Assembly: GCA_021018995.1 (NCBI GenBank) | Contig: CM037596.1 | Coordinates: forward strand, 89,039,184 to 89,103,183 | DNA length: 64,000 nt | Direction: 5' to 3' | Source of the DNA: Chloranthus sessilifolius | Taxonomy: Eukaryota; Streptophyta; Magnoliopsida; Chloranthales; Chloranthaceae | Made by a program: the position numbers and the translations under genes | Shown: positions 12,428-63,931 of the stretch, piece after piece | How the letters are laid out: every line of letters begins with the position of its first letter | Position numbering within the stretch: the stretch's first letter is position 1 | Notes under the pieces: model-generated | What the model saw: only the letters and a program-made list of their open reading frames with translations | What the model was told of the DNA's origin: nothing | The model's database searches: none

Positions 12428-12726
12428 TATTAAGCAGTGAAAAATACCATTTTTCACCTTTTAACCTGACCTTTGGTGGACCCTTGAGCTGACTAATAAG
12501 GTGTTTTAAATGTGTTTTATAGATAAGTAATAAATTGCAGCTTAGTGCAGATATTCACTTAAAAGAGCCCAAGAAGCACTGTGCTACCCAACAGGAAAAT
12601 GCCTGAGACCAAGTACAGTTGCAAGGAATAAAGATTTAACCTACTAAGGGGTTACAGAATGTTGAACAAAGGAAGAACGGCACACCCAAGATGTGTGCCA
12701 GCTGTGGAAGCACAAAGCAGAGCTGT

Positions 12727-13276
12727 CGAGAGGTTTTGAGTTGAAAAGATGAAGATCTCGAGAGATTCCAACACCTACCGAGAGGTTGGAAGTACAGACG
12801 TGGAACCCTGTCGGGAGGATACTTCAAGGTACAGATGAAGTCAAGAGGTTCCAGATACTTATCGCGAGGTTCAACTGAACCTGTCGAGCAGTGCAAGATA
12901 ACTTTTCAACAACTTACCTGAAGCAACATTCATTCTTGCAAGGATTAAGCCAACCTATCAAGCACTTCACTGAAGATTGTATAACCCATCCACAGGTTGA
13001 GTATAACCTATTGAGAGGATGAGTGTGGAACTGGGTAGAACAAAGAAATAAACCTTCAATCCTATTGACAAGTTCAAATCAACCTCTCGAGATGTTCTCC
13101 AAAGCTGTCAACAGGATCTTCACTAACCTGTCGAGATGTGTCCAAACCTATCGAGAGCTACTTCAATCCTATCGAGAGGTCTGCGAATCTGTCGAAAGCC
13201 AATGCAACCTATCGATGTGAACATAAAGCAGATCCAGAACCTGTCGAGAGGATCCCCTGACCCTCTCGACACTCAT
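12727..13276. repeat. TCGA-centred near-palindrome array, Athila 5' LTR
   Basis: More than a dozen copies of a motif near AACCTNTCGANAGGTT occur here (for example CTGTCGAGAGGTT, CCTATCGAGAG, ACCTCTCGAGATG), spaced roughly 20-50 bases apart. All lie upstream of the LTR TATA box. The same family of motifs fills 30936-31375, 36729-37318 and 60790-61215. Confidence 0.85.
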
Positions 13277-13539
13277 TTTGGTAACTTCTCAGCATGTTTC
13301 TTCAACAACTGCCACTTCTAGAATTATGTGCACGAGTTCCAAAGCACTTCAGCGACCCTTGGAGGTTTTTTTAGCACATAATTGGGCACAAATGGAAACC
13401 CTAACTACTTCACATGTATTTTCCAGTTGAGAGACAATAGGAGAGAGCTTCTAAAAGAGAAATCAGCCACATCAGCATAACAGAATCATTCTCTTGCACT
13501 CTGATTGGCTAAAACGGATCTAAGGATAGAGGAGGAGTG

Positions 13540-13547
13540 TATAAAAG
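13540..13547 (+). promoter_or_regulatory. TATA box of the Athila 5' LTR
   Basis: TATAAAAG lies about 1110 bases into the LTR, after the palindrome array. CT-rich text (CTCTCTCCTTCCTCCTCTC) about 80 bases downstream fits an early 5' leader. Confidence 0.7.
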
Positions 13548-14739
13548 CTTGAAGAAAATATAAAAGAATGATCCAGAGTCTGAGAGAACTAGAGCTTAGT
13601 GCGAGATCAATTTTTCCTCCAAAATTCTCTCTCCTTCCTCCTCTCATTCTCTCTTTAGCCAATCATGAGTGGCTAAACTCTTTTCAGTAGTTAGGGTGAG
13701 GTCTTGAGCTATATTTTGAGAGATTCAAAGGCTTGTAAGAAACTATATATTACACAGATTACAGATCTGGGCACAATAGTATTATAAGTTTGCAATATAA
13801 TTATGGGTTTTAAAGGTAATTCAAATCTATATTTCACTTCTTCATATTTGATTTCCCTATATTGGATACTCTTGCAGATGCCAGCCAGAAATAGAGAGCT
13901 GATAGCCTGGCATCTGCAGCATTTGTAATAGTTTTCTTATTCCAATCAAGATTAATAGATTAAAATAATCTCGGGGATGAACAGTATCCAGTAGAAGGGC
14001 AGATCATAAACTTAGGACTGTATCTAGCAGAAGGGCAGAGCCTAACCTCAGGATTGCCTTGATCCATTGGTGGAGATTGGATTCTTATACCTCACCTCTG
14101 CCGAGAGAACCTGGGTAGATCAATAGATTGGAATAATCTCAAGGATGAACTGTATCTAGTAGAAGGACAGATAAAAAACTTAGGACTGTATCTAGTAGAA
14201 AGGTAGATCCTAACCTTAGGATTGCTTTGATCTATTGGTGGATTCTGGGGAACCTGGGAAGCTTGGAGCCAGAAAAGAGGATTGTTGCAAATCATTTCTC
14301 TGCATTACCTTTGATTTCTTTGATTTTCATTGAGAGACCAATATCCCTAGCTGATGTTCTCACCTTCTTGAATTTTCAACTCTTCTATATCTCCCCTTAT
14401 CTCTGTGTTTGATTAGATCTGGATCAATAGCATTTATCTTTTGTAGTCTGTAGTTAAAGTGACAAAACCATAAAACCTCTCCTCTTTCCTGCTTTAGTTT
14501 AGTTTAAATTAGAATTAGGATAGAGTGCCAGATTTACCATCGATCTGGAGATTTATCATACTTTAGAACACATTTTCCTGTGGGCATACCCTAACTTACC
14601 TATCAAAACTTACTGCAACAACCCTTATTCTTGCAGGACTACCTGCTTGCCTAGATTCAACATTGCTGTAATTTGTGCAGTTAATCTGCTATTTTAATCA
14701 TATAATAATTATGAGGCAGGTAGGACAACAACAACTTTT

Positions 14740-15381: not shown

Positions 15382-18056
15382 TGTGACAGCCCGGGTTTCG
15401 GCACCCCGAAACCCGTGCCATCAGCACGATCGTCTTGACCGTGCCCTTTAGCGAAGCACGGAACACTGGTGTATCAAGCATTGTAATAAAATAATAAACG
15501 AAATTGCGGAATTTGAATCTATATTAATTAACTCTCCAAAAGACAGTTCTACCCTCATGCCTCTACATGAATGGAGAACCGATTCGAACCATCGATGATA
15601 GCAATCATCACGGATGGTTCGCCCCAAAAGAATAATCCCATCTATATATATATATATATATACATGGTGTAAATCAGAATCAAGGCTTGACATACCAAGC
15701 CGTACAAAATTCTCTCCAAAAATCCCTCAAAGTGGCACAACGGAGTCCTCTAGAAGAAGTCCTCTGGAGGTGGCTCCAACAAAGAAGGTCCGACTCACGA
15801 TCAGCGTCTCCTGAAGCCGCGGCAGCTGCTAGTAATGGACCTGCGACGTATAGTCTATAGGGTGAGCTACATCCTAGCTCAATAGGGAACAAACACGGTT
15901 GAACATATATATTATAACTCACATGTATTCCATGATATGCCATGCATGATGTATCTATGCAGTTGTTAATGAAACAGATTAAAAGCATTTCGTTTTACTG
16001 TTGATTACTTATATTTTCATTTACTCATGAATGATGCTGAGAAGGCCTAAAGCAAAACTTAAACTTTCAACTTAAGTAATCCCCGAGCAATATAGCATCG
16101 AGCCCCGATGAGATACCCATCATCGTCATCTATATAGACAGTTTTAACCGTATTCCCTGGGAATACAAATAGTACCCAAGCCCCTTTCCCCTGGGGATTG
16201 GTGGCGGGGTTTCACTTGTCTCAATCAACACCCCTGGGGTGTGCTTACTATGTACGGATAAGCCTCCGCACTGGCCTACGGTTTCGCCGCCGTATCGGTC
16301 ACGGATATCCTGCCGTGTCAGTCGTGGATATCCCGCCACGTCGGTGGGGTACCCTATCAAACCTCAAATAACAAAAATATCGGTGCCTTACATATAGTTA
16401 TTCACCGTGTAATTGTGCTATCTTATATCAGTTAGGCCCTATCAAACATGATTCAATCCTTGGATACATCCCTGGGATGTATCCATTTACTTGCATCACA
16501 CCTGATGCTCTTATCTCTTTACTTCTTCATCCCCTGGGGATGGCTCATTATGATTACTCTTATGAATGTCACACACACACACTTTCCACAAATTCTTAAG
16601 AAATAACAATTGAATTGAATTCTATATCACTACATACATGCTCTTGTAAAATAAGGTACATGTTCAAGGTGTTCCCTACCTCAAGTCTTCATTCGATCAT
16701 TGCATCAAGGTCCCACGTGGCTCCTTGTGCACTAGCTCACACGTACCACCTATGGTACCATATAACAAGTAAAACACATCACAAAGGATGCAATAAAGAA
16801 GGTATAAGATCCTCCAAGAATCTTAAAGTCAAACCCAAAAGTCAATATAATTTATCTCAGTCGATTAATCGAACTCCAAAATCGATTAATCGAATCTGAT
16901 TCGATTAATCGATTTCCAAAATCGATTAATCGAAGGTCAATATCGATTAATCGAAGTAATTTCGATTAATCGAAATTCTCCTTTTCGCAAAGTAATTTCA
17001 CTATTCGAACAGTCGAGTTTTCATTCGATTAATCGAATCCAATTTCGATTAATCGAAATTCCTCTTTTCGCAAAGTAATTTCACTGTTCGAACAGTCGAG
17101 TTTTCATTCGATTAATCGAATCCAATTTCGATTAATCAAAATTCTTCTTTTCGCAAAGTAGACTCTCAGTTCGAACAGTCGAGTTTCACAAGTTGATTAA
17201 TCGATCCCAAATTGATTAATCGAAAACTAAAATCGATTAATCGAAATCCCATTTCGATTAGTCGATTTTTCCTCAAGTCATTTCCTCCAACCCCTGGGGT
17301 CCACTGGAGGTTCTCAGTCGATTAATCGATCACCAAATCGATCAATCGAAATCCAAAATCGATTAATCGAAATCAAATTCGATTAATCGAAATCGGGGCC
17401 CTCTGACCTTTCAACTTCCTGGCCAATTTCGATTAATCGAAACCCAATTTCGATTAATCGAAATTGTCAGATTCAGCCCCTTTCGAGCTGTTCTTCCCAA
17501 TCTTTTTCCATTCTTTTCCCTCTATTTTTCTAAGCCATTATCCTATGATTTAACCCACATTTAACCACAACTTAACCCCTATAATCTATGCATCTTATTT
17601 ACAAAAAATTTTTACCTTGGATAGATCTCAAGTTGCTTTCTATCAAACAGTTGGAAGGCTAGGGTTTCCAGCTTTTGTTCTAACGGATCCCTTACGTTGA
17701 ATCAGCCTCTTTAATACTTGAATCCTTCTTCCAATCACCCACAACAACTCCTTGCTTAATCACCCTCTTTACTCCTCTCTCTCTCTTCTTTACTTCTCTC
17801 TCAACTACCAAACATCTATTTTAGGGTTATCAAACCCTTTTATCCCTCTCCTAGTTTGTGTGTTGAGCACATGCACCTCAAATAGGTGTATGCGACTTCA
17901 TATTTACAACACACACCACGCAATAATTCAAACTATCACATCTCGTCCGTTCATTACATCCTATACTAACTCTTGATCTCCTAATTGGTCAAACTTGTGA
18001 CCAATCGGGCACGGATCCCGAGGTCATAGTTTAGCGTGATTTTTCGGGCTATTACA
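15382..18056 (-). repeat. 3' LTR of Tekay-1
   Basis: On the plus strand it begins TGTGACAGCCCGGG and ends GGGCTATTACA, matching 25821-28451. It holds a TA-rich run at 15643-15663, whose minus-strand reading is a TATA box near the LTR's downstream end, and a TCGATTAATCGA array. No gene is encoded in it. Confidence 0.95.
16861..17462. repeat. TCGATTAATCGA palindrome array, Tekay-1 3' LTR
   Basis: About 15 exact copies of the 12-base palindrome TCGATTAATCGA (or the core CGATTAATCG) plus about six one-base variants occur in 600 bases. They usually alternate with AAATCC or CCAAA spacers. In element orientation the array lies upstream of the LTR TATA box, in U3. Confidence 0.95.
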
Positions 18057-18403: not shown

Positions 18404-19837
18404 TCAAGGGTCTGCTGGAGCTGGCTGCGGCGTCTCGGTCTGCGGAGCAGATGTGGATGTGGAAGGAGCCGCGTCTGTGGTGGGATGGAAGACGGGTCCT
18501 CGATGGAAGGCGGTGCGTCCGGCCGTCCACTCCTCCTCCTGGGCGAGGTAGCGGCGGTAGTCGGTCGGGTAGATGTGGCGGAGTGTGTGGAATAGGAGGA
18601 AGTCTATCCTCCGGTTCATCCTCTCATTGTTGGCCTCCATGCGAGCCAACACGTCCTCGTGGAGGGCGGCCGGTAGGATGAGGTGGGTGTCGCGGGCGCG
18701 AGTGTGTGTGTGGTGTCGGTGAGGCTGGTGTGGAGGAACCCTCTCCACGGATGGCTCGCAGAATAGGTGTGCCCACCCACGGGTGGGTCCCGCCGAGGTG
18801 GCGGGGTGGTGGCGGTGCTACAGGCGCCGCTGCCGGAGCGGGACCCGAGCTGGTAGGGTCCGCTAGAAGGTTGTAGCTACGGGTCCATGAAGACTTTGTA
18901 AATGTCTTCACGCGATCCGTAGCCCTCACCTCGTGAGGTGAGATGGTGTAGGATGGCTCGTTGGAGTAGCACTCCAACATGCTCGATATGAGACGAGCGT
19001 AGGGCATCTTTTCTTTGGGCCTCATGTTGCCCTTCATCAACTTCCCCTTGATGTATTTCATCCCCTCTAGGATGACCATCGTGGCGTCGAACCACCGCCA
19101 CTGAAGGCGCGTAAAGTGCATGTTGCACTTTGTCCACGCGCTCGGTGTCGTGGCGCATCGGGTAGAGGTTGCACTTGATTATGGAATCAAGCATCCACAT
19201 GTAAGGTGGAAGGTCAACCCTCTTGATGGAGGAGCCCGACCCCTTCTTGCCATTTGTCATGCGGGTCATGACCTCCTCAAATCGAGGGTCCTCCTCGAAG
19301 GGTGGGAATAGGGTGGTCTCTGGGGTGAAATCGAGGTAACACTCGATTACCTCGTGGATGTGGCGACGAGTGATCGTATAGAGACGACCCTCAATCTTGG
19401 TTATAATACAATCGTCGGTAGGGCCATTGGTTAGCCCTTGGTAAAAGAGTCTAACCAATCTAGGGTAGTAAGAACCCCGGATTGGTTTTAGAAGGTTGCC
19501 GAGGCCGGCATTATTTAGGTAGTTTCGAGTCCATTGGGTCTCGCCCGGCACATCGGGATCGGTGAAAAGGGTAGGGTCGATGATGTATTCGACCTCAAAG
19601 GTCTTTGCCGTCCACCATTCATTTGGTTGTTCGACACTGGTGGGTGGTGGTGGCATGGGGGTGGATTCGCGGGAAGACTCACAGAGACGCGCTTCGTTAA
19701 CCGGAGGTGGTCTCCAATTCCGACGGTGAAGGAGTCCTCACCGGCGATGGGGTAGGTGGTGGTGGTGCGGCGTTCTTACGCCTAACCGGTAGCTTGGAAG
19801 TTGCCTTCTTTGAAGACAATCAGGTTTTGGGCGGCAT
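18404..19837 (-). pseudogene. Extra ORF downstream of integrase in Tekay-1, related to the Athila 'env-like' ORF; broken
   Basis: This ORF lies between integrase and the 3' LTR, on the element's own strand, where ordinary Tekay/Del elements have only a short spacer. A likely start is near 19837 (MPPK). Then comes a basic stretch (KKATSKLPVRRKN) that could act as a nuclear localisation signal. The conserved part (about 19656-18877) contains SYYPRLVRLFYQGL and HIHEVIECYLDF. These match YSRLVKLWYHNL and the following block in the Athila extra ORFs at 31750 and 63931, so I place all three in one family, probably the 'putative plant transposon protein' group. The tail is rich in Pro, Ser and His. 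I see no signal peptide or membrane segment, which argues against an envelope. A TATA box and palindrome array lie upstream. It has about three breaks. Its function is unknown. Confidence 0.7.
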
Positions 19838-20066: not shown

Positions 20067-20075
20067 GGCCTCGGC

Positions 20076-20630
20076 TCGATTAATCGAAATCTAGAATCGA
20101 TTGATCGAGATTTCAAACTAAGTTGAGCCGCGAAAAATCGATTAATCGATTTCCCAAATCGATTAATCGAAAGTCAAATTCGACATCAAACCATTTCGAT
20201 TAATCAAATCGTTCTGCTTAAAATTTTAAAATTTTGAGCTCATCCGCTTGAGCGATCGACATCAAATCCATTTCGATTAATCGAAATTCCAAAATCGATT
20301 AATCGAATTTAGTTTCGATTAATCAAATCGCTATAACTTCTAATTTTCCGAATTCTCAAATTATTCGATTAATCAAATCCATTTCATTAATCGAAATTCA
20401 ATTTCTTCTAAGTCCCTAGTAAATCGATTAATCGAAGTATAATTCGATTAAGCGAATTTTCAAAATGGATTAGGCGAGATTCCAATTCGGTCAATCGGAA
20501 TGTGTCTTCATGTATATTCTGACTCTGCTTTCAATTTCTAGTCCTTTGGCACATGCCAGTCGACTAATCGAACAAAATTGATTAATCGAAATTCCAAATC
20601 GATTAATCGATTTGAAATTCGATTAATCGG
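20076..20630. repeat. TCGATTAATCGA palindrome array upstream of the Tekay-1 extra ORF
   Basis: About seven exact copies and about eight one- or two-base variants of TCGATTAATCGA occur between the integrase end and the internal TATA box. It is the same motif as in the LTR, with different spacer text, so it is not simply a copied piece of LTR. Confidence 0.9.
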
Positions 20631-20774: not shown

Positions 20775-22427
20775 TCACGTCGTTGGAAACAAGGCTGGAT
20801 ATTGTTCTCTCACATCGGCCTCTCGTTCCCAAGTAGCCTCTTCTTTTGGATGATTGTTCCACCGAACTAGCACTAAGGGAATCACTTTAGTGTGCAGTAC
20901 TTGTTCCTTTTGATCCAAGATTTCCACTGGTTCCTCTATCATGCTCATGTCCTCACACATCTCTATAGGTTGCTTTCCTAACACATGAGACGGATCATTC
21001 ACGTACTTCCTGAGCATCGATATGTGGAAAACATTATGTACTCTATCAAACAGCGGTGGTAAACCAATGCGGTATGTAACTTCACCTACGCGTCCCAAAA
21101 TTTCGAATGGTCCAACATAACGTGGACTTAACTTCCCTCTCTTGCCAAATCTCATTACACCTTTCATAGGTGACACCTTCACAAACACATGCTCGCCCAC
21201 TTTATAGTCAACACTAGTCCGCTTCATATCGGCATAACTTTTCTGTCTACTCTGTGCTGTCTTCAACCTTTCTCTGATAATTCGAACGACGGTAGCGTTA
21301 TCTTCAAGTAGTTTTGGTCCTAACACAAATTTCTCACCTGTTTCCTCCCAATTTAGAGGTGATTTGCATCGTCGTCCATACAGAGCTTCGTACGGTGCCA
21401 TGCCAATGCTCGTTTGGAAACTGTTGTTGTATGCGAACTCGAGCATCGGTAGATACTCATCCCAGTATCCTTGCATATCAAGCATGCATGCCCTGAGCAT
21501 GTCTTCTATTACTTGGTTCACTCGCTCTGTCTGCCCATCAGTTTGAGGATGGAAAGCTGAACTAAAGTCTAGTCGTGTTCCCATTCCTTCTTGAAATTTC
21601 TTCCAAAACTTGGACGTATATAGTGGATCACGATCTGAAACTATGCTGGTTGGAATACCATGTAATCTTACGATCTCCTTCATGTATAAGTCTGCCAGTC
21701 TTCCTGCCGTATACGTAGTATTGTACGGTAAAAAGTGCGCTGATTTGGTCAATCGGTCTACGACGACCCAAATGGCATTGTGTCCCTTGGCAGTACGGGG
21801 TAATCCAACAATGAAATCCATTGAGATCGATTCCCACTTCCATTCTGGGATTAGTAAAGGTTGCAATAGTCCAGCAGGATGTCTATGATCAGCCTTCACT
21901 TGCTGACAAGTCAAACATTGTGACACATACTCGGCCACGTCTTGTTTCAGTCCTCTCCACCAGTAGTTCTTTTTCAAATCTTGGTACATTTTGGTGCTAC
22001 CAGGGTGGATAGCATAATTTGACTTATGAGCCTCATCAAGAATCGTTCGTCTTAGATCGGCGTTGTCCGGAATGCATAGACGGCCTTTAAACAACAAAGA
22101 ACCATCTTCTTTTACTGAGAAGTCCGACCTGATGCCTTCACTCACGTCTTGATGAATCTTTGTTAATGTCGGATCTTTCATCTGTAGATCGTGGATATGC
22201 TCAAATATCACTGGCTTTACTGATATGTTAGCCAAAAAGGATCCAGTGTCCTTTGACTCAATGTTCGCATCATAGATTGCCAGGTCTTCCAATAATTTCC
22301 ATCGGTGCATACCCAAAATCAAAGAAGCTAACTGAGCTGAACCTTTCTGACTCAATGCATCGGCTACTACATTCGCCTTGCCTGGATGGTATTGTATGGA
22401 GCAATCGTAGTCCTTGAGGAATTCCAT
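20775..22427 (-). pseudogene. Integrase with chromodomain-like tail of Tekay-1 (open here; parent pol is broken)
   Basis: A long open stretch of 550 residues begins in the last part of RNase H (residues 1-30, DYDCSIQYHPGKANVVADAL). An HHCC zinc region follows near residues 130-185 (HKSNYAIHPG and CLTCQQVKADH). The DDE core then carries SMDFIVGLPRT, SDRDPLYTSKFW and QTDGQTERVNQ. The C-terminal GPFEILGRVGEVTYRI module is followed by a chromodomain-like tail (HTKVIPLVLVRWNN, EATWERE) that directs insertion in Tekay/Del elements. This is the best-preserved coding part of the window and fits a young insertion. Confidence 0.92.
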
Positions 22428-22436
22428 CCATCTGCG

Positions 22437-23637
22437 CTATCTCATGTTGAGTTCTTTCTGTGTAAACAGATATCGGAGGCTCTTATGATCGGTGAAAATT
22501 TCGAAGGTCTCACCATACAAGTAATGTCTCCAAATCTTCAGCGCAAAAATGACGGCTGCCAGTTCCAAGTCATGAGTCGGGTAATTTTTCTCGTGTTCTT
22601 TCAACTGTCTTGATCCGTAAGCTATCACCTTCTTGTGCTGGTTGAGCACACAACCAAGGCCATTGTATGACGCGTCATCAGACACCGCAGATCCTCCATC
22701 GCTCAAGGAATCGCTAACATCGGAGTCAAGTGAGTCTCGTTTTGAGTTCTTGAAAACTCTTCTCGCATGCCTCACTCCACTCAAACCTTGAATCTTTTCG
22801 TGTCAGCTTTGTGAGAGGTCCCGATATCTTTGAAAACCCCTCAACGAAACGTCGATAATAGCCTGCTAAGCCCAGAAAACTTCGAACATCGGTCACTGTC
22901 TTTGGTTGCTCCCATTTAACTACTGCTTCTATTTTAGCTGGATCTACCGTGACACCGTGCTTCGAGACGACATGTCCCAAAAAGCTAACTTCTTCCAACC
23001 AAAACTCACACTTGCTGAGTTTGGCGTACAATTGGTGTTCACGTAGCGTCTGTAGAGCAATCCTCAAATGTTCTTCGTGTTCCGTCTTGGATTTGGAGTA
23101 TATCAATATATCATCAACAAACACTACGACGCAGGAGTCCAAGTGTGGTTTAAACACTCGGTTCATCAGATCCATAAACGACGTCGGAGCATTCGTCAAT
23201 CCAAACGGCATCACAAGGAATTCATAGTGTCCATACGGTCCTAAAAGTCGTCTTCCGAATGTCCTCACTTTGACTCAAGAATCGATGATACCGGATCTCA
23301 GGTCGATCTTGGAAAAATACCTTGCTCCTTGCAGTTGGTCGAATAGATCGTCTATTCTAGGCAAAGGGTAGCGGTTCTTCACAGTGAGTTTGTTCAATTG
23401 TCGATAGTCAATGCATAACCGCATTGACCCATCCTTCTTCTTGACAAACAAGACCGGTGCTCCCCATGGAGATACACTTGGTCTAACAAACCCCTTGTCC
23501 ATAAGTTCTTGTAGTTGTTCCTTCAACTCCTTTAACTCAGCGGGAGCCATTCTATAAGGTGCTTTCGAAATAGGCTCCGTTCCTGGTGCTAAGTCAATGG
23601 CGAATTCTACTTCTCTTCCGGAGGTAATCCAGTGCAA
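22437..23637 (-). pseudogene. Reverse transcriptase and RNase H of Tekay-1, broken
   Basis: RT fingers and palm lie at about 23637-22900: [37 protein letters not shown] and [15 protein letters not shown], the last being the YxDD-class catalytic motif in its FVDD form. The thumb and connection follow ([18 protein letters not shown]). RNase H lies at about 22700-22437 ([33 protein letters not shown]). The stretch is well preserved with only a few breaks. The lineage is clear from RT phrase order. Confidence 0.9.
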
Positions 23638-23917
23638 TTCTTCCGAAACACGCCAAATAAGTCTCGCATAACCGCTATCTCGTAAATGACGTTCTTTTCT
23701 TCCTTGTCCTCGCTTAAGAAAGCTAAGTATCCATCAACCCTTTCGATCATTTTCTGCCCTCATCACGAGATCAAGTACGATGACGACCTCACCCTTGAAA
23801 CCGAAATGATCTTCTTGTGTTGGGTCCGAAAATAACTACCTTGTTCTTGCAATCGACGGTTGCATAATGTCATACGCCAACCACCCATGCCAAGGATCAC
23901 ATCAAACCCTTGCATGT

Positions 23918-24214
23918 CTAATAAAGACGTTTTGCTTCTAGTTCATGCACCTCCAAGTCTCGAACAGCTACAATGATGGATTTGCAAGCTAACTCCGTGT
24001 CTACTAACTCTCCAGTCGGAATAGACACGGATAGGACGAAATTCAACGTCTCTGGAACAATCTTCATCTTCTTAGCGAAACGTGGAGTGACGAATGAGTG
24101 GGTAGACCCGGGGTCTATCAACACTCGAGCGTCATATCCACCGAAGCATCCTTTTTCATATATATTTAAAGTACCTATAGCATACATACATACATACAAT
24201 AATTTACACATCAA
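23918..24214 (-). pseudogene. Aspartic protease region of Tekay-1, broken
   Basis: VLIDPGSTHSFVTPRFAKKM contains the D-P-G-S-T-H-S form of the retroelement protease active site. It would cut the Gag-Pol polyprotein into mature parts. It lies between gag and RT as expected. Confidence 0.8.
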
Positions 24215-24299
24215 ATTTCACTCTTAATTTACATACAGCTTTTGGTATTGAGAAAAGAATCTATATAATTTCTAATGCATGCTCCTTCTCTATCTAAGG

Positions 24300-25716
24300 T
24301 TTTAATGAAATGAAAATTTTCTTTTAATTTTAAAAAAAATCTCACCTTGGATGACGTCATGCACGTTCCTCGCTTCTGACGGATCGCATAGTTTCTCTCG
24401 GACGATCGGTTTCCTTGCTTGAATTGGTCGTGGTGCTGCAACTGAAACCGTCTTTCTCTTATCTGTCTCGGGGCAATCCTTGATCAAGTGGCCCACCTTG
24501 CCACATCGGAAACAACCCCTCGTTCCCGATCTACAGTCCACCGTCCTATGAGGCTTGCCACACTTTGTGCAAGTCTCCCGAGGTGCGGAAGAAACAGTAC
24601 GAGAACCCTGAGTGATGGTGGCGCCAGTAGACATGGCAGGGCTCTCATAGCGAATAGGTCTCCCCGACGCAAGTAATGGAAACCTCTGTTGGTGTTGTTG
24701 TTGTCATGCCGGCCTTCCAAACCCCTTGAAATTGTGGTCTCTGATTCTGGCCCATGAACCTCGGCTTTTTGTTCACCGGTTCATAGTGCCCCGTTCTTCC
24801 TTGTTCATTTCCTCCTCTCTGCTGCTCTCTCTGTCTATATCTATTATTATTCTCCTCTTCAACCACCAGTGCTTTACTCATGACCTCTTCATAGGTCCTT
24901 AGTTGAAATGGAGCTACGCCTCCCCTAACCTCAGGCTTCAAACCTTGCTGAAACCTCTTGGACTTCATCACCTCAGTAGCGACGTAGTCCAGAGTAAAAC
25001 GGGCAAGTCGTAGAAACTCTACCCCGTATTCTCTCACCGTCATTCTCCCTTGTACTAACTGCAAAAATTGTATCTCAAGCTGGTTCCTCACCACTTCTGG
25101 AAAATATTGTTTGTTGAACTCCTCAACAAACTCCTCCCAAGTCCAAGGCAACTCTGGGGTCTCTCGAGTCGAGTCCAGATCACGGACTTCCACCAAGGCC
25201 CAGCCTCCCCATCCAACATGTAAGCTGCCCATCTCACACTCTCATCTTCCGTGCATGTCAGCACGCTAAAGACTTTTTCCATCTCCATTAGCCAATTCTC
25301 AGCGGCCATGGTGTCTGCCTGCCCAGAAAATGAAGGAGGTCTCATCCTCCTAAACTCTGTAAAGGATGAGGGCACAAGCAACGCAGGTCCTACGGGTGGT
25401 GTAGGTGGCTACTGTTCTCTTGATGCATGAGCTGCAAAGGATGCGGCTTGTTGTGCCATGGCAGCTGCCATAGTCTCCATAGTGTGCATCATCCTTTGTC
25501 GCTCTTCTCTGTCCTCTTGTCTTTCTCTCAATCTTTCTTGTTCTCTTAGATCTTGATCTTGCTGATCTCGATCTTCTTCATCCCGTTGTCTACTACTATC
25601 GCCTCGGGCCTCAAGATTCCTAAAGGCACTCTATTGGTAGGAGAGATGTAACCATCTCCACTACGTACACTCCTCTGCTGGCCTCCCCTTGGTCGGCCTC
25701 TTCCTCTAGACGACAT
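24300..25716 (-). pseudogene. gag of Tekay-1, broken
   Basis: The likely start is an ATG at 25716 followed by a basic Ser/Arg/Gly stretch (SSRGRGRPRGG). A charged Gln/Arg-rich region follows. The retrotransposon gag domain spans about 25380-24900, with WTWEEFVEEFNKQYFPEVV, LQLVQGRMTVREYGVEF and the later phrase LKPEVRGGV. Near 24590-24470 there are two cysteine motifs, CTKCGKPHRTVDC and the perfect CCHC knuckle CFRCGKVGHLIKDC, which bind nucleic acid in the particle. It has only a few breaks. Confidence 0.88.
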
Positions 25717-25820: not shown

Positions 25821-28451
25821 TGTGATAGCTCGGGTTTCGGCACCCCGAAACCCGTGCCATCAGCACGATCGTCTTGACCGTGCCCCTTAGCTAAGCACGG
25901 AACACTGGTGTATCAAGCATTGTAATAAAATAATAAACGAAATTGCGGAATTTGAATCTATATTAATTAACTCTCCAAAAGACAGTTCTACCCTCATGCC
26001 TCTACATGAATGGAGAACCGATTCGAACCATCGATGATAGCAATCATCACGGATGGTTCGCCCCAAAAGAATAATCCCATCTATATATATATATACATGG
26101 TGTAAATCAGAATCAAGGCTTGACATACCAAGCCGTACAAAACTCTCTCCAAAAATCCCTCAAAGTGGCACAACGGAGTCCTCTAGAAGAAGTCCTCTGA
26201 GGCCGCAAGGTCCGACTGGGTTTCCAAGCCTCAAATTGCTAGTAATAGTGGACCTCATGACGATAGTCTATAGGGTGAGCTACATCCTAGCTCAATAGGG
26301 AACAAACACGGTTGATCATATATATTATAACTCACATGTATTCCATGATATGCCATGCATGATATATCTATGCAGTTGTTAATGAAACAGATTAAAAGCA
26401 TTTCGTTTTACTGTTGATTACTTATATTTTCATTTACTCATGAATGATGCTGAGAAGGCCTAAAGCAAAACTTAAACTTTCAACTTAAGTAATCCCCGAG
26501 CAATATAGCATCGAGCCCCGATGAGATACCCATCATCGTCATCTATATAGACAGTTTTAACCGTATTCCCTGGGAATACAAATAGTACCCAAGCCCCTTT
26601 CCCCTGGGGATTGGTGGCGGGGTTTCACTTGTCTCAATCAACACCCCTGGGGTGTGCTTACTATGTACGGATAAGCCTCCGCACTGGCCTACGGTTTCGC
26701 CGCCGTATCGGTCACGGATATCCTGCCGTGTCAGTCGTGGATATCCCGCCACGTCGGTGGGGTACCCTATCAAACCTCAAATAACAAAAATATCGGTGCC
26801 TTACATATAGTTATTCACCGTGTAATTGTGCTATCTTATATCAGTTAGGCCCTATCAAACATGATTCAATCCTTGGATACATCCCTGGGATGTATCCATT
26901 TACTTGCATCACACCTGATGCTCTTATCTCTTTACTTCTTCATCCCCTGGGGATGGCTCATTATGATTACTCTTATGAATGTCACACACACACACTTTTC
27001 ACAAATTCTTAAGAAATAACAATTGAATTGAATTCTATATCACTACATACATGCTCTTGTAAAATAAAGTACATGTTCAAGGTGTTCCCTACCTCAAGTC
27101 TTCATTCGATCATTGCATCAAGGTCCCACGTGGCTCCTTGTGCACTAGCTCACACGTACCACCTATGGTACCATATAACAGGTAAAACACATCACAAAGG
27201 ATGCAATAAAGAAGGTATAAGATCCTCCAAGAATCTTAAAGTCAAACCCAAAAGTCAACATAATTTATCTCAGTCGATTAATCGAACTCCAAAATCGATT
27301 AATCGAATCTGATTCGATTAATCGATTTCCAAAATCGATTAATCGAAGGTCAATATCGATTAATCGAAGTAATTTCGATTAATCAAAATTCTCCTTTTCG
27401 CAAAGTAATTTCACTATTCGAACAGTCGAGTTTTCATTCGATTAATCGAATCTAATTTCGATTAATCGAAATTCCTCTTGTTAGAAACAATTGAGTTTTC
27501 ATTCGATTAATCGAATCCAATTTCGATTAATCGAAATTCTTCTTTTCGCAAAGTAGACTCTCAGTTCGAACAGTCAAGTTTCACAAGTTGATTAATCGAT
27601 CCCAAATCGATTAATCGAAAACTAAAATCGATTAATCGAAATCCCATTTCGATTAGTCAATTTTTCCTCAAGTCATTTCCTCCAAACCCTGGGGTCCACT
27701 GGAGGTTCTCAGTCGATTAATCGATCACCAAATCGATCAATCGAAATCCAAAATCGATTAATCAAAATCAAATTCGATTAATCGAAATCGGGGCCCTCTG
27801 ACCTTTCAACTTCCTGGCCAATTTTGATTAATCGAAACCCAATTTTGATTAATCGAAATTGTCAGATTCAGCCCCTTTCGAGCTGTTCTTCCCAATCTTT
27901 TTCCATTCTTTTCCCTCTATTTTTCTAAGCCATTATCCTATGATTTAACCCACATTTAACCACAACTTAACCCCTATAATCAATGCATCTTATTTACAAA
28001 AAATTTTTACCTTGGATTGATCTCAAGTTGCTTTCTATCAAACAGTTGGAAGGCTAGGGTTTCCAGCTTTTGTTCTAACGGATCCCTTGCGTTGAATCAG
28101 CCTGTTTAATACTTGAATCCTTCTTCCAATCACCCACAACAACTCCTTGCTTAATCACCCTCTTTACTCCTCTCTCTCTCTTCTTTACTTCTCTCTCAAC
28201 TACCAAACATCTATTTTAGGGTTATCAAACCCTTTTATCCCTCTCCTAGTTTGTGTGTTGAGCACATGCACCTCAAATAGGTGTATGCGACTTCATATTT
28301 ACAACACACACCACGCAATAATTCAAACTATCACATCTCGTCCGTTCATTACATCCTATACTAACTCTTAATCTCCTAATTGGTCAAACTTGTGACCAAT
28401 CGGGCACGGATCCCGATGTCATAGTTTAGCGTGATTTTTCGGGCTATTACA
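25821..28451 (-). repeat. 5' LTR of Tekay-1
   Basis: It matches 15382-18056 over nearly its whole length. It holds a TA run at 26082-26095 (a TATA box on the minus strand) and the TCGATTAATCGA array at 27274-27858. A patch near 26200-26260 differs from the partner LTR much more than the rest. The right target duplication ATATA follows at 28452. Confidence 0.95.
27274..27858. repeat. TCGATTAATCGA palindrome array, Tekay-1 5' LTR
   Basis: The counterpart of 16861-17462, with nearly the same series of exact and near copies and one unit pair fewer. Several copies show single C-to-T or G-to-A changes of the kind expected at methylated sites. Confidence 0.95.
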
Positions 28452-36400: not shown

Positions 36401-36415
36401 TTAGGTTTGGAGGTG
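36401..36415 (+). other. Polypurine tract of the Athila-like element
   Basis: TTAGGTTTGGAGGTG directly precedes the 3' LTR. It is the same as TTAGGTTTGGGGGTG at 60560-60574 except for one base. Confidence 0.85.
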
Positions 36416-46080: not shown

Positions 46081-46600
46081 TGTAGACACCCTCATTTTGC
46101 CCTCTCGAAATATACAAATCTGTTTGGTCAACCTCCTTTGACCTCCCAACCCCAATGTGGGACTATATACTGAAACAATAGTATATGACTGGACACAGGC
46201 TGAAATAATAGCTCTGTGACTCAAATCCCAACGTAGGGAGACTATATATTGAAATAATAGTATATAGTCAGAATGCAGAGTGAAACAATAGTCTTGTATT
46301 TTAGGCCCTATGACCTTAAGTGGGAACCATGCACTGAACTAATAATACATGGCTAGACACAGGCTGAAATAATAGCTTTGTGGCTTAGGTCCCAACGTAG
46401 AGAAACTATATACTGAAAAAATAGTATATAGTTGAAATGCAGACTGAAACAATAGTCTGACATTTCAAATCCCCTAACCTTAACATAGGGACCATATACT
46501 GAAATAATAGTAAATGGCTGAACACAAGCTGAAATAATAGCTCTGTGGCTCAAATCCCAACGTAGGGAGACTATATACTAATTCAATAGTATATAGTCGG
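46081..46600 (+). repeat. 3' LTR of the Tat-like element, first 520 bases only
   Basis: It matches 452-970 (TGTAGACACCCTCATTTTGC, then the hairpin array). It stops abruptly at AGTATATAGTCGG where a Tekay-2 LTR begins. The missing remainder is not found after the Tekay-2 array. Confidence 0.9.
46160..46600 (+). repeat. Hairpin array in the Tat-like 3' LTR
   Basis: It has the same four-stem cycle and constant loop as 531-1010. Examples are 46240-46269 (11-base arms, loop GAAATAAT) and 46404-46433 (11-base arms, loop GAAAAAAT). In the latter the end pair has changed from G:C to A:T on both sides. Confidence 0.9.
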
Positions 46601-47380: not shown

Positions 47381-47663
47381 TCAATCGATTGAGAAATCAA
47401 TAGATTGAGTCGGACTCAATTGATTGAGACTGGGCACAGAATTATATCAATTGATTGACAATTGGATGTCAATCGAATGAGGGTGAATATTAAATGGTAA
47501 CAGACAAAATCCCAATGGATTGAGTAAAACCCAATAAATTGAGCATGAGCATGGATTTATGTCAATGGATTGAGAAATCAATCCATTGAGCATGAATAGT
47601 ATTCAATGGATTGAGCTAAAATCAATAGATTGAGCCTAAACATGAACTCAATAGATTGAGTGA
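47381..47663. repeat. TCAATNGATTGA palindrome array, LTR A
   Basis: About twelve copies of TCAATCGATTGA, TCAATGGATTGA, TCAATAGATTGA or near variants occur in 280 bases. The flanking arms TCAAT and ATTGA are fixed and the middle base varies. Confidence 0.9.
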
Positions 47664-47928: not shown

Positions 47929-48272
47929 CATTAAACCCAACATCTTATACATGATGGAGTCTAAGAAGGTATTAGACCCAAAATCTTGTGCTTGATGGAA
48001 TCTTACTAAACAAGATTAAGGAGCATTAAACCCAACATCTTGTACATGATGGAGTCTAAGAAGGTATTAGACCCAACATCTTGTGTAAGATGGAGTCTAA
48101 CTAAACAAGAGTATGATGAGCATGACTAAGCCCAGCGTCTTGAGCGGGACGGAGTTTAACATGCAATAAATGATATGATTCATTAGACCCAACGTCTTGA
48201 GCATGATGGAGTCTAACTAAACAAGTGATAAGCATGATTACGACCCAACGTCTTGAGCAGGACAAATTCTAA
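47929..48272. repeat. Hairpin tandem repeat with covarying stem, LTR A
   Basis: Seven units of about 45-58 bases each contain a TTAGAC..GTCTAA outer stem and a 4-base inner stem. The inner stem is CATC:GATG in some units and CGTC:GACG in others (compare 47940-47954 with 48135-48152), with CGTC:GATG intermediates. The spacer is TTAAACAAG-like text. Confidence 0.8.
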
Positions 48273-52528: not shown

Positions 52529-52963
52529 TCAATCGATTGAGATTGAGAATTCAATCGATTGAGAAATCAATAGATTGAGCCGGACTCAATAGATTAAGAC
52601 TGGACACAAAATTATATTAATCAATTGATGATTGGATGTCAATCGATTGAGGATTAAATGATAGTATTTCAGAAAAAATACATAGAATTATGTCAATTGA
52701 TTGACTCTTGGATGTTAATCGATTGAGGGTGAACATTAAATAGTAACAGATAAAATCTCAATGGATTGAGTAAAACTCAATAGATTGAGCATGGGCATGG
52801 ATTTATATCAATGGATTGAGAAATCAATCCATTAAGCATGAATAGTATTCAATGGATTGAGAAATCAATCCATTGAGCATGAATAGTATTCAATGGATTA
52901 AGAGCTCAATAGATTGAGCTAAAATCAATAGATTGAGCCTAAATATGAACTCAATAGATTGAG
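52529..52963. repeat. TCAATNGATTGA palindrome array, LTR B
   Basis: About 16 exact or near copies occur, longer than the LTR A array by roughly 150 bases. The difference is in unit number, as expected of a tandem array that gains and loses copies. Confidence 0.88.
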
Positions 52964-53231: not shown

Positions 53232-53574
53232 CATTAGGCCCAACATCTTATATATGATAGAGTCTAAGAAGGTATTAGACCCAATATCTTGTGCTTGATG
53301 GAGTCTAACTAAACACGATTAAGGAGTATTAGACCCAACATCTTGTACATGATGGAGTCTAAGAAGGTACTAGACCCAACATCTTGTGTAAGATGGAGTC
53401 TAACTAAACAAGAGTATAATGAGCATAATTAAGTCCAACGTCTTGAGCGGGACGGAGTTTGATAATAAATTATATAATTCATTATACCCAACGTCTTGAG
53501 CATGACGGAGTCTAACTAAACAAGTGATAAGCATGATTACGACTCAATGTCTTGAGCGGGACGAAGTCTAACGT
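53232..53574. repeat. Hairpin tandem repeat, LTR B
   Basis: The counterpart of 47929-48272, with about seven units and both CATC:GATG and CGTC:GACG inner stems. Confidence 0.78.
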
Positions 53575-57693: not shown

Positions 57694-59028
57694 TGCTATA
57701 ATCTGAATTTTATGACTTTGATACACCTAAAATATGTGTATGTGCTTAATATCGTATTCTCCGCATGTCGTGACTTTTCAAAAGGTTTTAACTAAAAATA
57801 TATGTTTTGGTTTTCCAAGCTTTTATATTTATTTTCGTCATTTATGGACACAAGTTATGTGATAGCCTACTGGTTAAATGCTTTAAGTTCTAGATAAGAG
57901 ATTTAGGGATCAAACCTTGTTATGTGTGTTCTAAACCTCTATTTTTAACCTTGAGGTAAAAACCTTTACACTCTTCATTGGTGTTTTAGCTTAACACCAG
58001 ATAATCTCTAAAATATTATAAATAAGTGTCTTACAGAGAACCCTAAATTCTAATCTCATTCAGAGTTCTTCTTAAGAATAGAGCCGTTAGAAACCCTAGA
58101 GTCCTTAGAGAAGAAATTCTAGATCTACTTATCTAGAATTTTTCTTTTAAAGATCGGCGAGACATTGGCGTATATTCTCAAGTGGCCTTCACCTCCTGCT
58201 AGAATTATTATCTTATTGGGATCTTAATCTAATCATGGTGGCACGATCGATCTAGGTATGGCGAAATCATGTTTTCCATTGAACTTAAAATATTGACTTT
58301 TAAATAGATTTTTATGTAAATTAGTGAGTTTATTTCATGAATAATGGATGGATGATTAAATAAATTTATGCTATGATTGGTGATCCTTAATGTTGATAAT
58401 TTTAATTAAGAAGAAGATGGTTTAAATCCCACCATGTGATTTGATATATTTTGATGTGTGCTCACAGAATTATGTCAATCGATTGAGATTGAGAATTCAA
58501 TCGATTGAGAAATTAATAGATTGAGCCGGACTGAATAGATTGAGATTGGGCACAGAATTATGTCAATCAATTGATGATTGGATGCCAATCGATTGAGGAT
58601 TAAATGATTATTTTAAAGAAAATATACAGAATTATGTCAGTCGATTGACTCTTAGATGTTAATCGATTGAGGGTGAATATTAAATGGTAACAGACAAAAT
58701 CTTAATGAATTGAGTAAAACTCAATAAATTAAGCATGAGCATGGATTTATGTCAATGAATTGAGAAATCAATCCATTGAGCATGAATAGTATTTAATGGA
58801 TTGAGAGCTCAATGGATTGAGCTAAAATCAATAGATTGAGCCTAAACATAAACTCAATAGATTGAGTGTGAATAGTTAAGTTCTATATTCAGTTCTTCTC
58901 ATAACAGATTCATTAAATATCAATGTTTATGTACTATGATCGTATGGTATGCATTGTAATGTTTATGCATCATGATTGTGTGCACTTAAATATTTATGTA
59001 TCATGATTAAATTTACTTAAATGCTTAT
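57694..59028 (+). repeat. Tekay-2 LTR C, incomplete
   Basis: It starts TGCTATAATC after a purine tract and matches LTRs A and B for about 1.33 kb, including TATAAATA at 58017 and a TCAATNGATTGA array (58475-58866). Similarity stops at 59028, where Athila sequence begins. Confidence 0.88.
58475..58866. repeat. TCAATNGATTGA palindrome array, LTR C
   Basis: About 14 exact or near copies of the family motif occur, in the same order as in LTR B with small differences. Confidence 0.85.
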
Positions 59029-60559: not shown

Positions 60560-60574
60560 TTAGGTTTGGGGGTG
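60560..60574 (+). other. Polypurine tract of the second Athila-like element
   Basis: TTAGGTTTGGGGGTG directly precedes the LTR start TGTTAAGTGG. Confidence 0.85.
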
Positions 60575-60789: not shown

Positions 60790-61215
60790 ATAACGTTCTA
60801 TCGATTAGTCACCCGAAGAGTTCGACAGGATCAGAAAGCAGCAAAAGGAAGAATTCATGCAGAAGTGAAGAGTTCGATAGGATCCAAGACCCTATCAAGC
60901 AGTTGAAAGAGAAAGAGAATTCAACCTATCGAAAGCTAGCTGAGGGAAGGAGGAGACCTATCGAACGGTTCACTGAACCTATCGAAATAGAAATGCTGAG
61001 ACAGCACCTATCGCAGAATGATTTGAACCTTTCGATAGGAACAAAGGTCATCCGATCAAAGCGACTCACTCTTCCAACCTATCGAAAGCCTCAGAGCAAG
61101 CGCAGTGAAGCTAAATCCGACCTATCGGAACCTATCGAAGAGACCACTGAACCTATCGAAAAGAATTACAAGCTTAGTTTCAACCTGTCGGAAGCCTCTT
61201 CAACCTGTCAAAATC
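60790..61215. repeat. Near-palindrome array, second Athila LTR
   Basis: About 15 copies of a motif related to CCTATCGAAAG, TTCGATAGGA and GAACCTATCGAA occur. The core CTATCGA is the same as in the first Athila, but the dominant arm has changed from GAGAGG to AAAG/ATAGG, so the motif has drifted between subfamilies. Confidence 0.85.
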
Positions 61216-61423
61216 ATGTGCTGAACTTCTCAGAAACCATACTGTACACACGCTGAGACTTGGTGACCCATTGCATGCAAACCGAGGCACTTTGGTGACT
61301 GGCGCGACGTTCTAGAAGATGCCCTAGGAAACCCTAACCAACCCACGTGCTTTAATAAAACTCTAACAAACTCTGACAACCTTCTAGAAGGGATTGTTGG
61401 CGGTAAAAATAGAGAAGGAAAGG

Positions 61424-61431
61424 TATATATT
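61424..61431 (+). promoter_or_regulatory. TATA box of the second Athila LTR
   Basis: TATATATT lies about 850 bases into the LTR, just downstream of the palindrome array, as in the first Athila LTR. Confidence 0.55.
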
Positions 61432-62050
61432 GGAACCCCCAATTACCATTGGGGGCATCAAATTTCTGAGCAATTTTCCAGAGATCAGAGCTTGCAGCGA
61501 GATTCCTTTTTTCCTCCTTTAACCCAATCATGTTTGGCTAAACCCCTTGGAGCAGTGAGGAGTGAGTTAGATCTCTAATTGGGTAAGGTTAAGAGTGTTG
61601 CTGGGGTTAATTGTTGCATAGACTACAGATCTGAGAGCATTCCATTGTAAGAGTGACCTAGTTTGGAATGTAAATGTTGTTTTTAATGTTTTAATTAGAT
61701 CTAAAGCTCTTTTGACTCCTCGTGGTGCTCGATCGGATTTGTGTAGAGGAGTTGATCAGCTCACCCACTTAACTGGTAGACCTCTTGGATATCATTTGAA
61801 TTCCCTGGATCTGATATCCCTATAATTTCCTGTGTCTGTGACCTAGAAATTGCAGCATCTGTAGTGGTTTTAATTGTTCTAATTGAGGCCCTGGCTCTGT
61901 AGGAGATCTCTAGGATGGTCTGTGACCATTAAAGTGGACAGATCATAACCTTAAGGTAAATCTGAGCTCAAGCCTCAATTGGATTTATCTACTGCAATCC
62001 GTAGATTCGATAAAGCCTATAGGATGGTCTGTGACCATTAAAGTGGACAG

Positions 62051-63931
62051 GGATGAAGAGGAGGGGGTGGAAAGGTTCAGATCCTCCCATAGATCAGTTT
62101 GGGTAGAGGCATCCTGAAAAATAGGGGGGAAAGACACAGGGAAATGGGTGGAGGGTACCTCAACAATTGCCAAAACAGGGGCAGGTGAGGATGAAGGTAT
62201 TCCAGGTGCTAGGGGGGAGGTGGGGGTAAAAATGGGGTGGCTAACTCCACAAAAAGAATATCAGTAGGGATGGGGGAGGGCATAGGTGATAAGGGAGGAA
62301 AGAAAATTAAAAGGGAGGGATCAGGGGAGGTAGGAGAAATGGGAAACGGATGGGAGACTAAAGTGGGGGGAGTGAGGGTGGATTGAATTGATTGGAGGCA
62401 TGAGCTCATGAGGGCCTGGTGGTGAGTGTTAATGGCCACTTGGGCCTGAATGGAGTGAAGGAGGGAGAGGATTTGGGTGAAGGTATCAGGCAAGGTGGAA
62501 GTAGAGGGGATGGGTGAATGAATGGGATGGAAAGGGGAGGACGGACAGAGCATGGGTAAAGTGAGGAGGAGTAGTGTGAGGAGAGTCAGGAAGTGGGGTG
62601 TACTCATGAGCAACATTCTCCACAATTGAAGAAATGAGGGCAGAGAAACCAGTAGAAGTGAACTGGTCCACACCCTGTGTATGAGTAGGAAGTGGTGGAG
62701 GGGGAAAATTAGGAAGGGGTTGGAGGGAGGGTGGGAAAGACAAGGTGGGGATAGGCTCAGAGAAGGTGGGGAGTTCCAAGATCCCAGGTGTAGGTGATGG
62801 TGTAGGTAAAGTGGATGAAAAGGTGGGTGATGTAGGAGGAATGATGGGTGAGGGTATGTCAGCAGCAAGATCTACTGTTGAGGTATTGGCCACTTCCTTC
62901 TCTGCTGCAACCAGCTTGGTTTTTTGAATCAGGGTTAAACTTGTAGACCATTCTCTCTTTCCAAAAACCTTGTGAGCCATTTTCTCCACTGGCTCAGCCA
63001 CCTTGATCCTATATTTTCCAGCTCTGAGCAGACAGGTGATAAGTCTGCTGAAAGGTAATCCTCCTCCCTTTGCAAAAGTCTGTCGTTTGAGCACCTTGTC
63101 ATTTATGTCCACCATAGTTTCAAAGATCAGCTTAGGTGCATTGACGAACTGTCCCTTGGAATAATAAAATATGGCATCCTCTAATGGGGACCTTCTTTCC
63201 TGCAAATGTCCTGTAACATAGACATTTTTTCTTAAGATGGTATCCATGAATCTGAGGCTAGGATGGAGGTCTCTTCTCATCAGGGATTCTCCAGAACCCA
63301 CAATCCCATTGGTTAGCTGCTTGGCCATATCTTTAAATGTAGCTCCAATAGGTGCTCCCTCAAAGCGGTTGGAATCAAATTGGTATGGGACCCCCAGAGC
63401 CATTCCTATGTCTCTATGATCGATAGTCAGTTGCCAATCATCAATCGAAATTTCTAATACATCATCCGTCCCCTGTGCCACCTTCTTCTTCAGATTTTGG
63501 TACCATAACTTCACCAACCTGGGATACACTGATTCCTTCAATGGCGATAGTAGGGGCAACAAGCCTTCTTTCTTCAAATCGCTTAGTGTTTCCTAGCACT
63601 CTCCAATGTTGGCAAAATGTGTCAGGTCAAATCCGGTCTCAGGGACAAGGTTTAACTTGTCAACAAATTCATTGGGGGTTGTTAGTGTAGCTGAAAGCTC
63701 TACAGCCATGGGCCTTTCAGGGGTAGCTCTCTCTAAGGGTGTTTCTATCACAAGTTCCTGGATTTCTACAGCTTTGGATTTCTTAGCTTTAGGACCCTTT
63801 TTGGATGTCCCCTCAGCAAGCTTCCTCTTTACTGGTGGCTTGGTAGTAGGGGGTACCTTCTTGGAGGATTTAGGGGAAGATGCAATTGATTTTCGGCGTA
63901 TGCTGGCTAGTGTTTCCTCAGGCTCATTCAT
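62051..63931 (-). pseudogene. Athila extra ('env-like') ORF, inverted, C-terminal end missing, broken
   Basis: The ATG at 63931 opens MNEPEETLASIRRKS. A strong two-part basic stretch follows (PVKRKLAEGTSKKGPKAKK), a good candidate nuclear localisation signal. The conserved domain contains TTPNEFVDKLNLVP, YPRLVKLWYQNL, TIDHRDIGMALGVP, ESLMRRDLHPSLRFMDTI, AIFYYSKGQFVNAPKLI and LPFSRLITCLLRAGKY. These match the first Athila ORF (31980-32760) point by point. A long Pro/Ser/Thr-rich region follows. The sequence stops being Athila ORF at the junction near 62050. There are one or a few breaks. The promoter side would lie beyond 63931, to the right of the window. Confidence 0.8.

Follow-up and report, generated by a model that had tools for sequence, protein, structure and literature searches.

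Introduction

Bousios et al. (2010; PMC2829016) described 13 Sireviruses (Ty1/copia) with palindromic repeated-motif (RM) boxes, which were found before ENV in nine of the nine RM-bearing elements with that gene and in none of the four without it (Table 3 of that paper). Some ENV-containing Sireviruses had no RM boxes, and the boxes were missing from the classic Ty1/copia set of the same study, which suggested a supporting role at an internal promoter and identified no binding factor common to them. In the VANC/VANDAL system (Hosaka et al. 2017; PMC5735166), short motifs private to each family are clustered in non-coding element regions, where a factor encoded by the element binds them. Here, we analyzed a stretch of 64,000 nt from Chloranthus sessilifolius (assembly GCA_021018995.1, contig CM037596.1, positions 89,039,184 to 89,103,183 of the forward strand; the 'window'), which consists of nested long terminal repeat (LTR) retrotransposons. 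Four LTR families in the window each carry a private array of palindromes or hairpins and two of them have, besides the LTR array, a second one upstream of an extra open reading frame (ORF).

The functions of extra genes in plant LTR retrotransposons are unsettled (PMC11963269, PMC7264820, PMC11728184). In sunflower, the extra ORF of Athila elements lies at the 3′ position, belongs to Transposase_32 (PF20167) and has a nuclear signal (PMC11728184), and an analogy with VANC has been discussed for the Athila extra ORF (PMC12844716). Retand elements carry antisense TRP28 ORFs between pol and the 3′ LTR, for which a role as DNA-binding regulator was suggested (Vicient 2025; PMC11963269).

Results

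Four LTR families carry private motif arrays

The domains PMD (plant mobile domain) and PF20167-like ('putative plant transposon protein') mark the elements of the window as plant-type. The names Tat, Athila and Tekay are labels from an earlier sequence-only reading of the stretch, and element boundaries were taken from self-comparison of the window and from reading of the element ends (Table 1). We counted 152 perfect palindromes ≥10 bp long in the window, compared with 68.6 expected from 20 dinucleotide-preserving shuffles per 1-kb block, a TA microsatellite being part of the excess. The palindrome TCGATTAATCGA alone was present in 20 copies, in addition to longer palindromes containing it.

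Motif sites were counted in 12 array stretches, which were drawn around clusters already seen, so that the counts describe the arrays rather than discover them; expected numbers are based on resampling each stretch 100 times with a first-order Markov model. The Athila motif CCTNTCGANAGG (≤2 mismatches) had 17, 13, 16 and 8 sites in its four own arrays (expected 0.24–0.36) and a single site in the eight arrays of other families. For Tekay-1 (TCGATTAATCGA, ≤2 mismatches) we found 20, 16 and 20 sites (expected 0.46–0.59) and for Tekay-2 (TCAATNGATTGA, ≤1 mismatch) 11, 18 and 14 (expected 0.04–0.09), with no site of either in the respective nine other arrays, while the Tat motif ACTGAAAYAATAGT (≤2 mismatches) had 9 and 10 sites (expected 0.03–0.04) and none in the ten other arrays. 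Scattered matches outside all 12 stretches numbered 20 for Athila, 4 for Tekay-1, 6 for Tekay-2 and 2 for Tat. All ten LTR arrays had 8–20 sites each at these settings, the two Tat arrays being made up of hairpin units instead of gapless dyads. This confirmed that the four motif types form dense arrays, each private to its own family, as an earlier note on this DNA had claimed; beyond the Athila array of that claim, a second Athila-type LTR has one of its own. When counted on both strands, which imposes symmetry, the motifs held 15.7 bits of information in Athila (47 sites), 27.7 in the Tekay-1 LTR, 25.0 in the Tekay-1 internal array and 22.8 in Tekay-2. The Tekay-1 motif TCGAT-TA-ATCGA (3′ LTR and internal arrays) and the Tekay-2 motif TCAAT-NG-ATTGA (LTR b array) share one frame; a symmetric G to A replacement, which abolishes the CpG, distinguishes them.

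The arrays recur in front of extra ORFs

Athila-1 and Tekay-1 carry the motif a second time inside the element, upstream of the extra ORF. This double placement is seen in both of the two families whose extra ORF is in sense orientation and whose sequence upstream of that ORF is covered by the window, and it is predicted by a self-regulatory pairing of motif and ORF. The earlier note had identified the LTR arrays but left these internal ones unmentioned. In Athila-1, the internal array follows an ORF with a weak aspartyl-protease match and stands about 376 nt before the ATG of the extra ORF. In Tekay-1, it lies between the pol stop and the extra ORF and is followed by a TATA box, the chance of any TATAWAW in the 239 nt behind this array being 0.04.

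Overall, TATAWAW was found downstream of four of the eight stretches scanned (Tekay-1 internal, Athila-1 5′ LTR, second Athila LTR and Tat 5′ LTR) where the chance of a match was 0.04–0.10; three of the four are among the six LTR stretches of the scan. The box of the Tat 5′ LTR is a TATAAAA at about 1462, past the hairpin array. In Athila-1, the canonical TATAAAA of the 5′ LTR sits within a segment of 564 nt (13343–13906) that is missing from the 3′ LTR; possibly, the core promoter was lost from the 3′ LTR or, alternatively, the 5′ LTR acquired an insert.

We compared the arrays with their palindromes masked. No match at E 0.01 was obtained in any of four pairs (LTR versus internal, Athila-1 versus second Athila), while the control, the Athila-1 LTR pair, gave five matches; the test has low power, with about half of each array turned to N. 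Without masking, 9, 3 and 7 matches were obtained for the Athila pairs, the best three of each spanning 16–45 nt. The unmasked alignment of the Tekay-1 LTR and internal arrays reached 66% across 528 columns; that pair could go back to an old duplication.

Table 1. Features of the window, with positions counted from its first nucleotide
Feature	Position	Strand	Remarks
Tat element			LTR starts 452 and 46081
Tat 5′ LTR start, hairpin array	452..1020	+	12 units with GAAAYAAT-like loop
Athila-1 5′ LTR	12428..14720	+	~90% identical to ~36416–38195
Athila-1 5′ LTR array	12722..13273	+	18 sites (≤3 mismatches), consensus AACCTNTCGANAGGTT, 10.5-bp phased; TATAAAA at about 13540
Tekay-1 3′ LTR	15382..18056	-	96.5% identical to 5′ LTR
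Tekay-1 3′ LTR array	16861..17461	-	20 sites TCGATTAATCGA (≤2 mismatches)
Tekay-1 extra ORF region, PF20167-like	18624..19837	-	Sense, stops and frame changes; candidate ATG 19837, by eye
TATA box TATATATATAAAA	20054..20066	-	Starts 10 nt behind last Tekay-1 internal palindrome
Tekay-1 internal array	20076..20630	-	16 sites, between pol stop (20775) and extra ORF
Tekay-1 gag-pol pieces	20775..25408	-	Integrase and chromodomain-like end
Tekay-1 5′ LTR	25821..28451	-	
Tekay-1 5′ LTR array	27274..27856	-	20 sites
Athila-1 internal array	30936..31374	+	15 sites (≤3 mismatches), 13 (≤2), 10.5-bp phased
Athila-1 extra ORF region, PF20167-like	31750..33323	+	Pieces in different frames, lysine-rich N-terminal piece
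Athila-1 3′ LTR	about 36416–38195		
Athila-1 3′ LTR array	36740..37320	+	16 sites (≤2 mismatches), 23 (≤3)
Antisense PMD (PF10536) ORF, assigned to Tat	39906..40511	-	41.2 bits, cut-off 34.9
Tat 3′ LTR start, hairpin array	46081..46600	+	10 units counted
Tekay-2 LTR a array	47381..47660	+	11 sites TCAATNGATTGA
Tekay-2 second hairpin unit CCCAACATCTTG...	47936..48272	+	7 copies; 7 more at 53239–53571; ≤9/29 mismatches
Tekay-2 LTR b array	52529..52962	+	18 sites, unphased
Tekay-2 LTR c array	58475..58870	+	14 sites, unphased
Second Athila 3′ part and LTR start	from 59035 onward		
Second Athila-type LTR array	60797..61215	+	14 sites (≤3 mismatches), 8 (≤2), phased
PF20167-like extra ORF, another Athila-type element	62486..63976	-	In-frame stop; upstream region beyond window

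Athila palindromes are spaced by helical turns

Successive Athila palindromes were mostly 20–23, 30–34, 50–54, 63 or 105 bp apart, with exceptions at 27, 15, 43 and 10 bp. We scanned periods from 7 to 16 bp and ran the spacing test with sites at ≤2 and at ≤3 mismatches; spacings >110 bp were left out, which at the looser setting removed none of the tested Athila spacings (5′ LTR, internal, second LTR). The best period was 10.5–10.6 bp in the 5′ LTR, 10.5 in the internal array, 10.3–10.4 in the second LTR and 10.6–10.8 in the 3′ LTR, and the pooled best period was 10.5 at both site settings. The mean cosine at 10.5 bp, with the looser sites, was 0.81, 0.68, 0.75 and 0.77 in the same order, and with the stricter sites 0.81, 0.64 and 0.72 in the first three. 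Not one of 100,000 jittered sets reached the value of the 44 pooled spacings from these three arrays; without the 18–23 class, this was still true for 21 spacings, and for the 18 spacings from the stricter sites the count was 3 of 100,000. With bare TCGA as the anchor, each of the four Athila arrays still scored 0.68–0.71 (p ≤ 0.0011). A comparison with random placement under a minimal distance likewise rejected such placement. Long-range phase coherence over a whole array was also rejected, the spacings between neighbours accounting for the coherence.

Spacers in the Athila 5′ LTR were no more alike than shuffled ones (0.261 versus 0.258), which argues that slippage did not create the spacing there. 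Tekay-1 had a cosine at 10.5 bp of 0.77 in the LTR and 0.44–0.49 in the internal array. The phasing of Athila points to a protein on one face of double-stranded DNA.

Extra ORFs with PF20167-like matches

At useful E-values, the only Pfam matches of the extra ORFs were PF20167-like or PMD. The three PF20167 (Transposase_32) scores, 29.3, 28.2 and 31.6 bits (E 1.8e-7 to 2.1e-6), were obtained from pieces of broken ORFs and are all below the cut-off of 45. N-terminal pieces of all three contain lysine/arginine clusters, by eye. The Athila and Tekay-1 extra ORFs are 25–42% identical, in pieces. A PF20167-like ORF follows pol in the chromovirus-like Tekay-1, hinting at an exchange between Athila and chromovirus lineages, and the combination of one protein family with different motifs in Athila and Tekay-1 would be compatible with co-evolution. 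No homologues of two extra-ORF pieces were detected at E 1e-3 or better among 3035 and 238 candidates, and in a sequence search of the PDB, the Athila-type ORF had only two matches, both at chance level (E 0.92 and 1.5), and PMD had none.

Tat and Tekay-2 arrays are confined to the LTRs

The Tat units were listed as 12 in the left and 11 in the right LTR, of which the one at 46402 was dropped for lack of pairing, leaving 12 and 10; the right array stops where the Tekay-2 LTR starts (46601). The GAAAYAAT-loop hairpins of the earlier note are real, with pairing kept around the conserved GAAAYAAT while the arm sequences differ, but the units are interrupted and the loop is asymmetric, and the left array (about 539–1000) lies outside the coordinates given there. 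A pairing of the Tat array with the PMD gene, which had been considered too, was not borne out: the motif scan of the window found no internal Tat array by the PMD ORF, and the only Tat array near this ORF is that of the 3′ LTR. Two 85-nt tandem copies (CAGCAGGTCACGACATGCGACGGG...) at 45646–45803, just before the Tat 3′ LTR and upstream of the antisense PMD ORF, are a possible PMD promoter element. The Tat leader region contains 34-nt tandem repeats (2178–2791).

Tekay-2, from 46601 to about 59028, is arranged as LTR-body-LTR-body-LTR with a shared middle LTR, as from unequal recombination. Its second hairpin unit, also described in the earlier note, was recovered in seven copies in each of two LTRs.

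The elements around the arrays

Tekay-1 is chromovirus-like, lies on the minus strand nested inside Athila-1 and is flanked on both sides by TATAT (5-bp target-site repeat, by eye). It has Ty3-type gag and integrase domains (Pfam), followed by a Chromo match of 22.2 bits (E 1.3e-4), below the cut-off of 25.1; a search of viral contigs gave no relatives of its integrase. The interior of Athila-1 (28452–36408) holds gag and protease-like ORFs, the internal array and the extra ORF. No reverse transcriptase or integrase match was found there with the Tekay-1 and Tat pieces that served as the only queries. Athila-1 looks non-autonomous and still retains array and extra ORF.

Discussion

The arrangement in Athila-1 and Tekay-1 resembles the Sirevirus plan in its element-specific palindromes, present in many LTR copies (in Sireviruses upstream of a TATA box, here with one following in the Athila-1 5′ LTR but not in its 3′ LTR or the Tekay-1 5′ LTR), and in a second cluster that stands before ENV there and before the extra ORF here. 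It differs in that the hosts are Ty3/gypsy (Athila, chromovirus-like) and not Ty1/copia elements, that the extra ORF encodes a PF20167-like protein whose N-terminus is basic, and that the motifs have no CGG-CCG core, which Tnd-1 also lacks (PMC2829016). The 10.5-bp phasing measured here has no counterpart in the accessible part of that paper, where helical or periodic box spacing is not described. With VANC/VANDAL, the window shares a short, family-private motif in dense arrays in non-coding element regions; unlike these LTR elements, VANDALs are DNA transposons, and the VANC21 motif YAGTATTAY forms arrays of a single orientation, without being described as palindromic in the accessible text (PMC5735166). 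The extra ORFs resemble that of sunflower Athila in their PF20167-like match and 3′ position. The sunflower Tekay extra ORF, in contrast, is at the 5′ side and without a known domain, whereas that of Tekay-1 is PF20167-like and follows pol, with its own array; palindromes are not mentioned in the main text of the sunflower study (PMC11728184). Retand TRP28 ORFs likewise lie between pol and the 3′ LTR but have another domain and orientation, and no private palindrome array is described for them in the accessible part of PMC11963269. Among the matches listed in our search of the open-access literature, no report described palindrome arrays for Ty3/gypsy elements that carry an extra ORF. Measured against that literature, the locus is the known plan of Sirevirus RM boxes in new lineages with a new ORF family, together with a phasing signal that we did not find described.

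We favor, with a probability of roughly 0.6, the interpretation that the arrays are element-specific cis-regulatory modules, that is, putative dimer-binding sites through which the LTR promoter would be controlled and, in the case of Athila-1 and Tekay-1, an internal promoter driving the extra gene as well. The motifs are dyads placed ahead of promoters and, in Athila, phased on double-stranded DNA; together, these features argue for dimeric proteins sitting on the symmetric sites along one face of the helix. Once bound, such dimers would switch the LTR promoter and the internal promoter together, the latter presumably serving the extra gene, which lies after gag/pol and ahead of the 3′ LTR. 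The most likely factor would be the element's own PF20167-like nuclear protein, as suggested by the double placement, the N-terminal lysine/arginine clusters and the nuclear prediction for its sunflower relative (PMC11728184), and binding of its own sites could create a positive feedback loop that counters silencing. The earlier note's view that symmetric motifs suit a dimeric DNA-binding protein is in line with the dyads and with their phasing in Athila. Its proposed pairing of family factors with family arrays fits the placement in LTR and at the extra ORF in two families, but not the Tekay-2 arrays, which come without a visible extra ORF.

Several observations weigh against a promoter-linked binding array. 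The scan found no TATAWAW after the Athila internal, Athila-1 3′ LTR and Tekay-1 5′ LTR arrays, and the Tekay-2 matches (including LTR b) were at chance level. By eye, TATA-like boxes stand before the Tekay LTR arrays, near 28237 and 52071, where the TATAWAW scan gave none in Tekay-1 and chance level only in Tekay-2; if real, these boxes imply that the arrays are transcribed. By analogy with Retrosat2, in which U3 covers 1–244 (PMC3485330), the Tekay LTR arrays may lie past the transcription start, making an RNA role possible. All seven arrays tested folded as RNA better than shuffles (z −2.3 to −8.6). Phasing is also limited in extent. It was rejected for Tekay-2 (cosine 0.03), and for Tekay-1 the support was weak once the 18–23 class was removed (p 0.05 and 0.03, with a best period of 12.8 or 7.1 and not 10.5). 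Tekay-1 spacers are homologous (0.372 versus 0.295 shuffled), so that part of the Tekay-1 spacing was made by duplication, and spacers were more alike than shuffled in the Athila internal array (0.302 versus 0.245, sd 0.015) and slightly so in the second Athila LTR (0.297 versus 0.270, sd 0.016). CpG change between the Tekay-1 LTR copies was commoner in the array (10/48) than elsewhere (4/61); the corresponding values were 13/26 versus 7/9 in Athila-1 and 0/3 versus 13/28 in Tekay-2, and these comparisons gave no consistent sign that the arrays were lastingly protected from methylation. Binding by the element's own protein is further opposed by the Tekay-2 family, in which we saw no extra ORF of at least 75 aa and matched no PF20167-like piece, and whose core CAATCGATTG is that of the tobacco Sirevirus Tnd-1 palindrome ACAATCGATTGT (PMC2829016 Table 3). 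AlphaFold2 on five window rows gave no usable fold (predicted local distance difference test score 41.9).

The missing Tekay-2 ORF and the core shared with Tnd-1 would both be expected if a host transcription factor bound each array, the elements having independently gathered host sites as enhancers. The CAAT-ATTG half-sites presumably resemble homeodomain-zip sites. We nevertheless consider host binding unlikely, given that the motifs are private between families of one genome and that elements with the same protein family carry different motifs; placement before the extra ORF also suits self-control, though a host factor could do likewise.

Still less probable, in our judgment, is that the palindromes act as RNA or single-strand hairpins, for packaging or as small-RNA/silencing templates. 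Such a role has been argued for the LTR palindromes of maize Sireviruses (PMC10760457) and would agree with the folding of the tested arrays, with the pairing kept in Tat despite arm variation and with arrays in a possibly transcribed Tekay LTR; for Tat and the second Tekay-2 unit it does as well as cis-regulatory binding sites. However, the Athila phasing is a feature of double-stranded DNA, and fixed gapless dyads such as TCGATTAATCGA form merely 4-bp stems alone. Neutral tandem repeats, a functionless motif spread by slippage and duplication, are very improbable and disfavored for Athila: true tandem duplications exist in Tekay-1 (83-nt and 20–21-nt periods) and Tat (165-nt unit), and spacer similarity exceeds that of shuffled sequence in Tekay-1, Tekay-2 and the Athila internal array, but the Athila 5′ LTR spacers are phased yet not alike, the Athila distances of 30–34, 50–54, 63 and 105 bp have no single common unit length, one motif is shared by arrays that give no match once it is masked (at low power), and arrays are placed upstream of the extra ORF.

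Beyond cis-regulatory modules as such, we tentatively propose, while leaning toward doubt, that the PF20167-like extra genes of plant Ty3/gypsy elements encode sequence-specific nuclear activators, which would bind helically phased private palindromes in the LTR and before their own gene. They would form a self-targeted anti-silencing loop with an origin in LTR elements independent of VANDAL/VANC, and the protein family would have passed between Athila and chromovirus while the motif diverged. A private, helix-phased array in the LTR and before the extra gene offers a concrete, testable answer to what that gene may do, namely encode a regulator whose sites are known, and would bring the ENV boxes of Sireviruses, the ORFs of Athila and VANC-type anti-silencing under a common logic.

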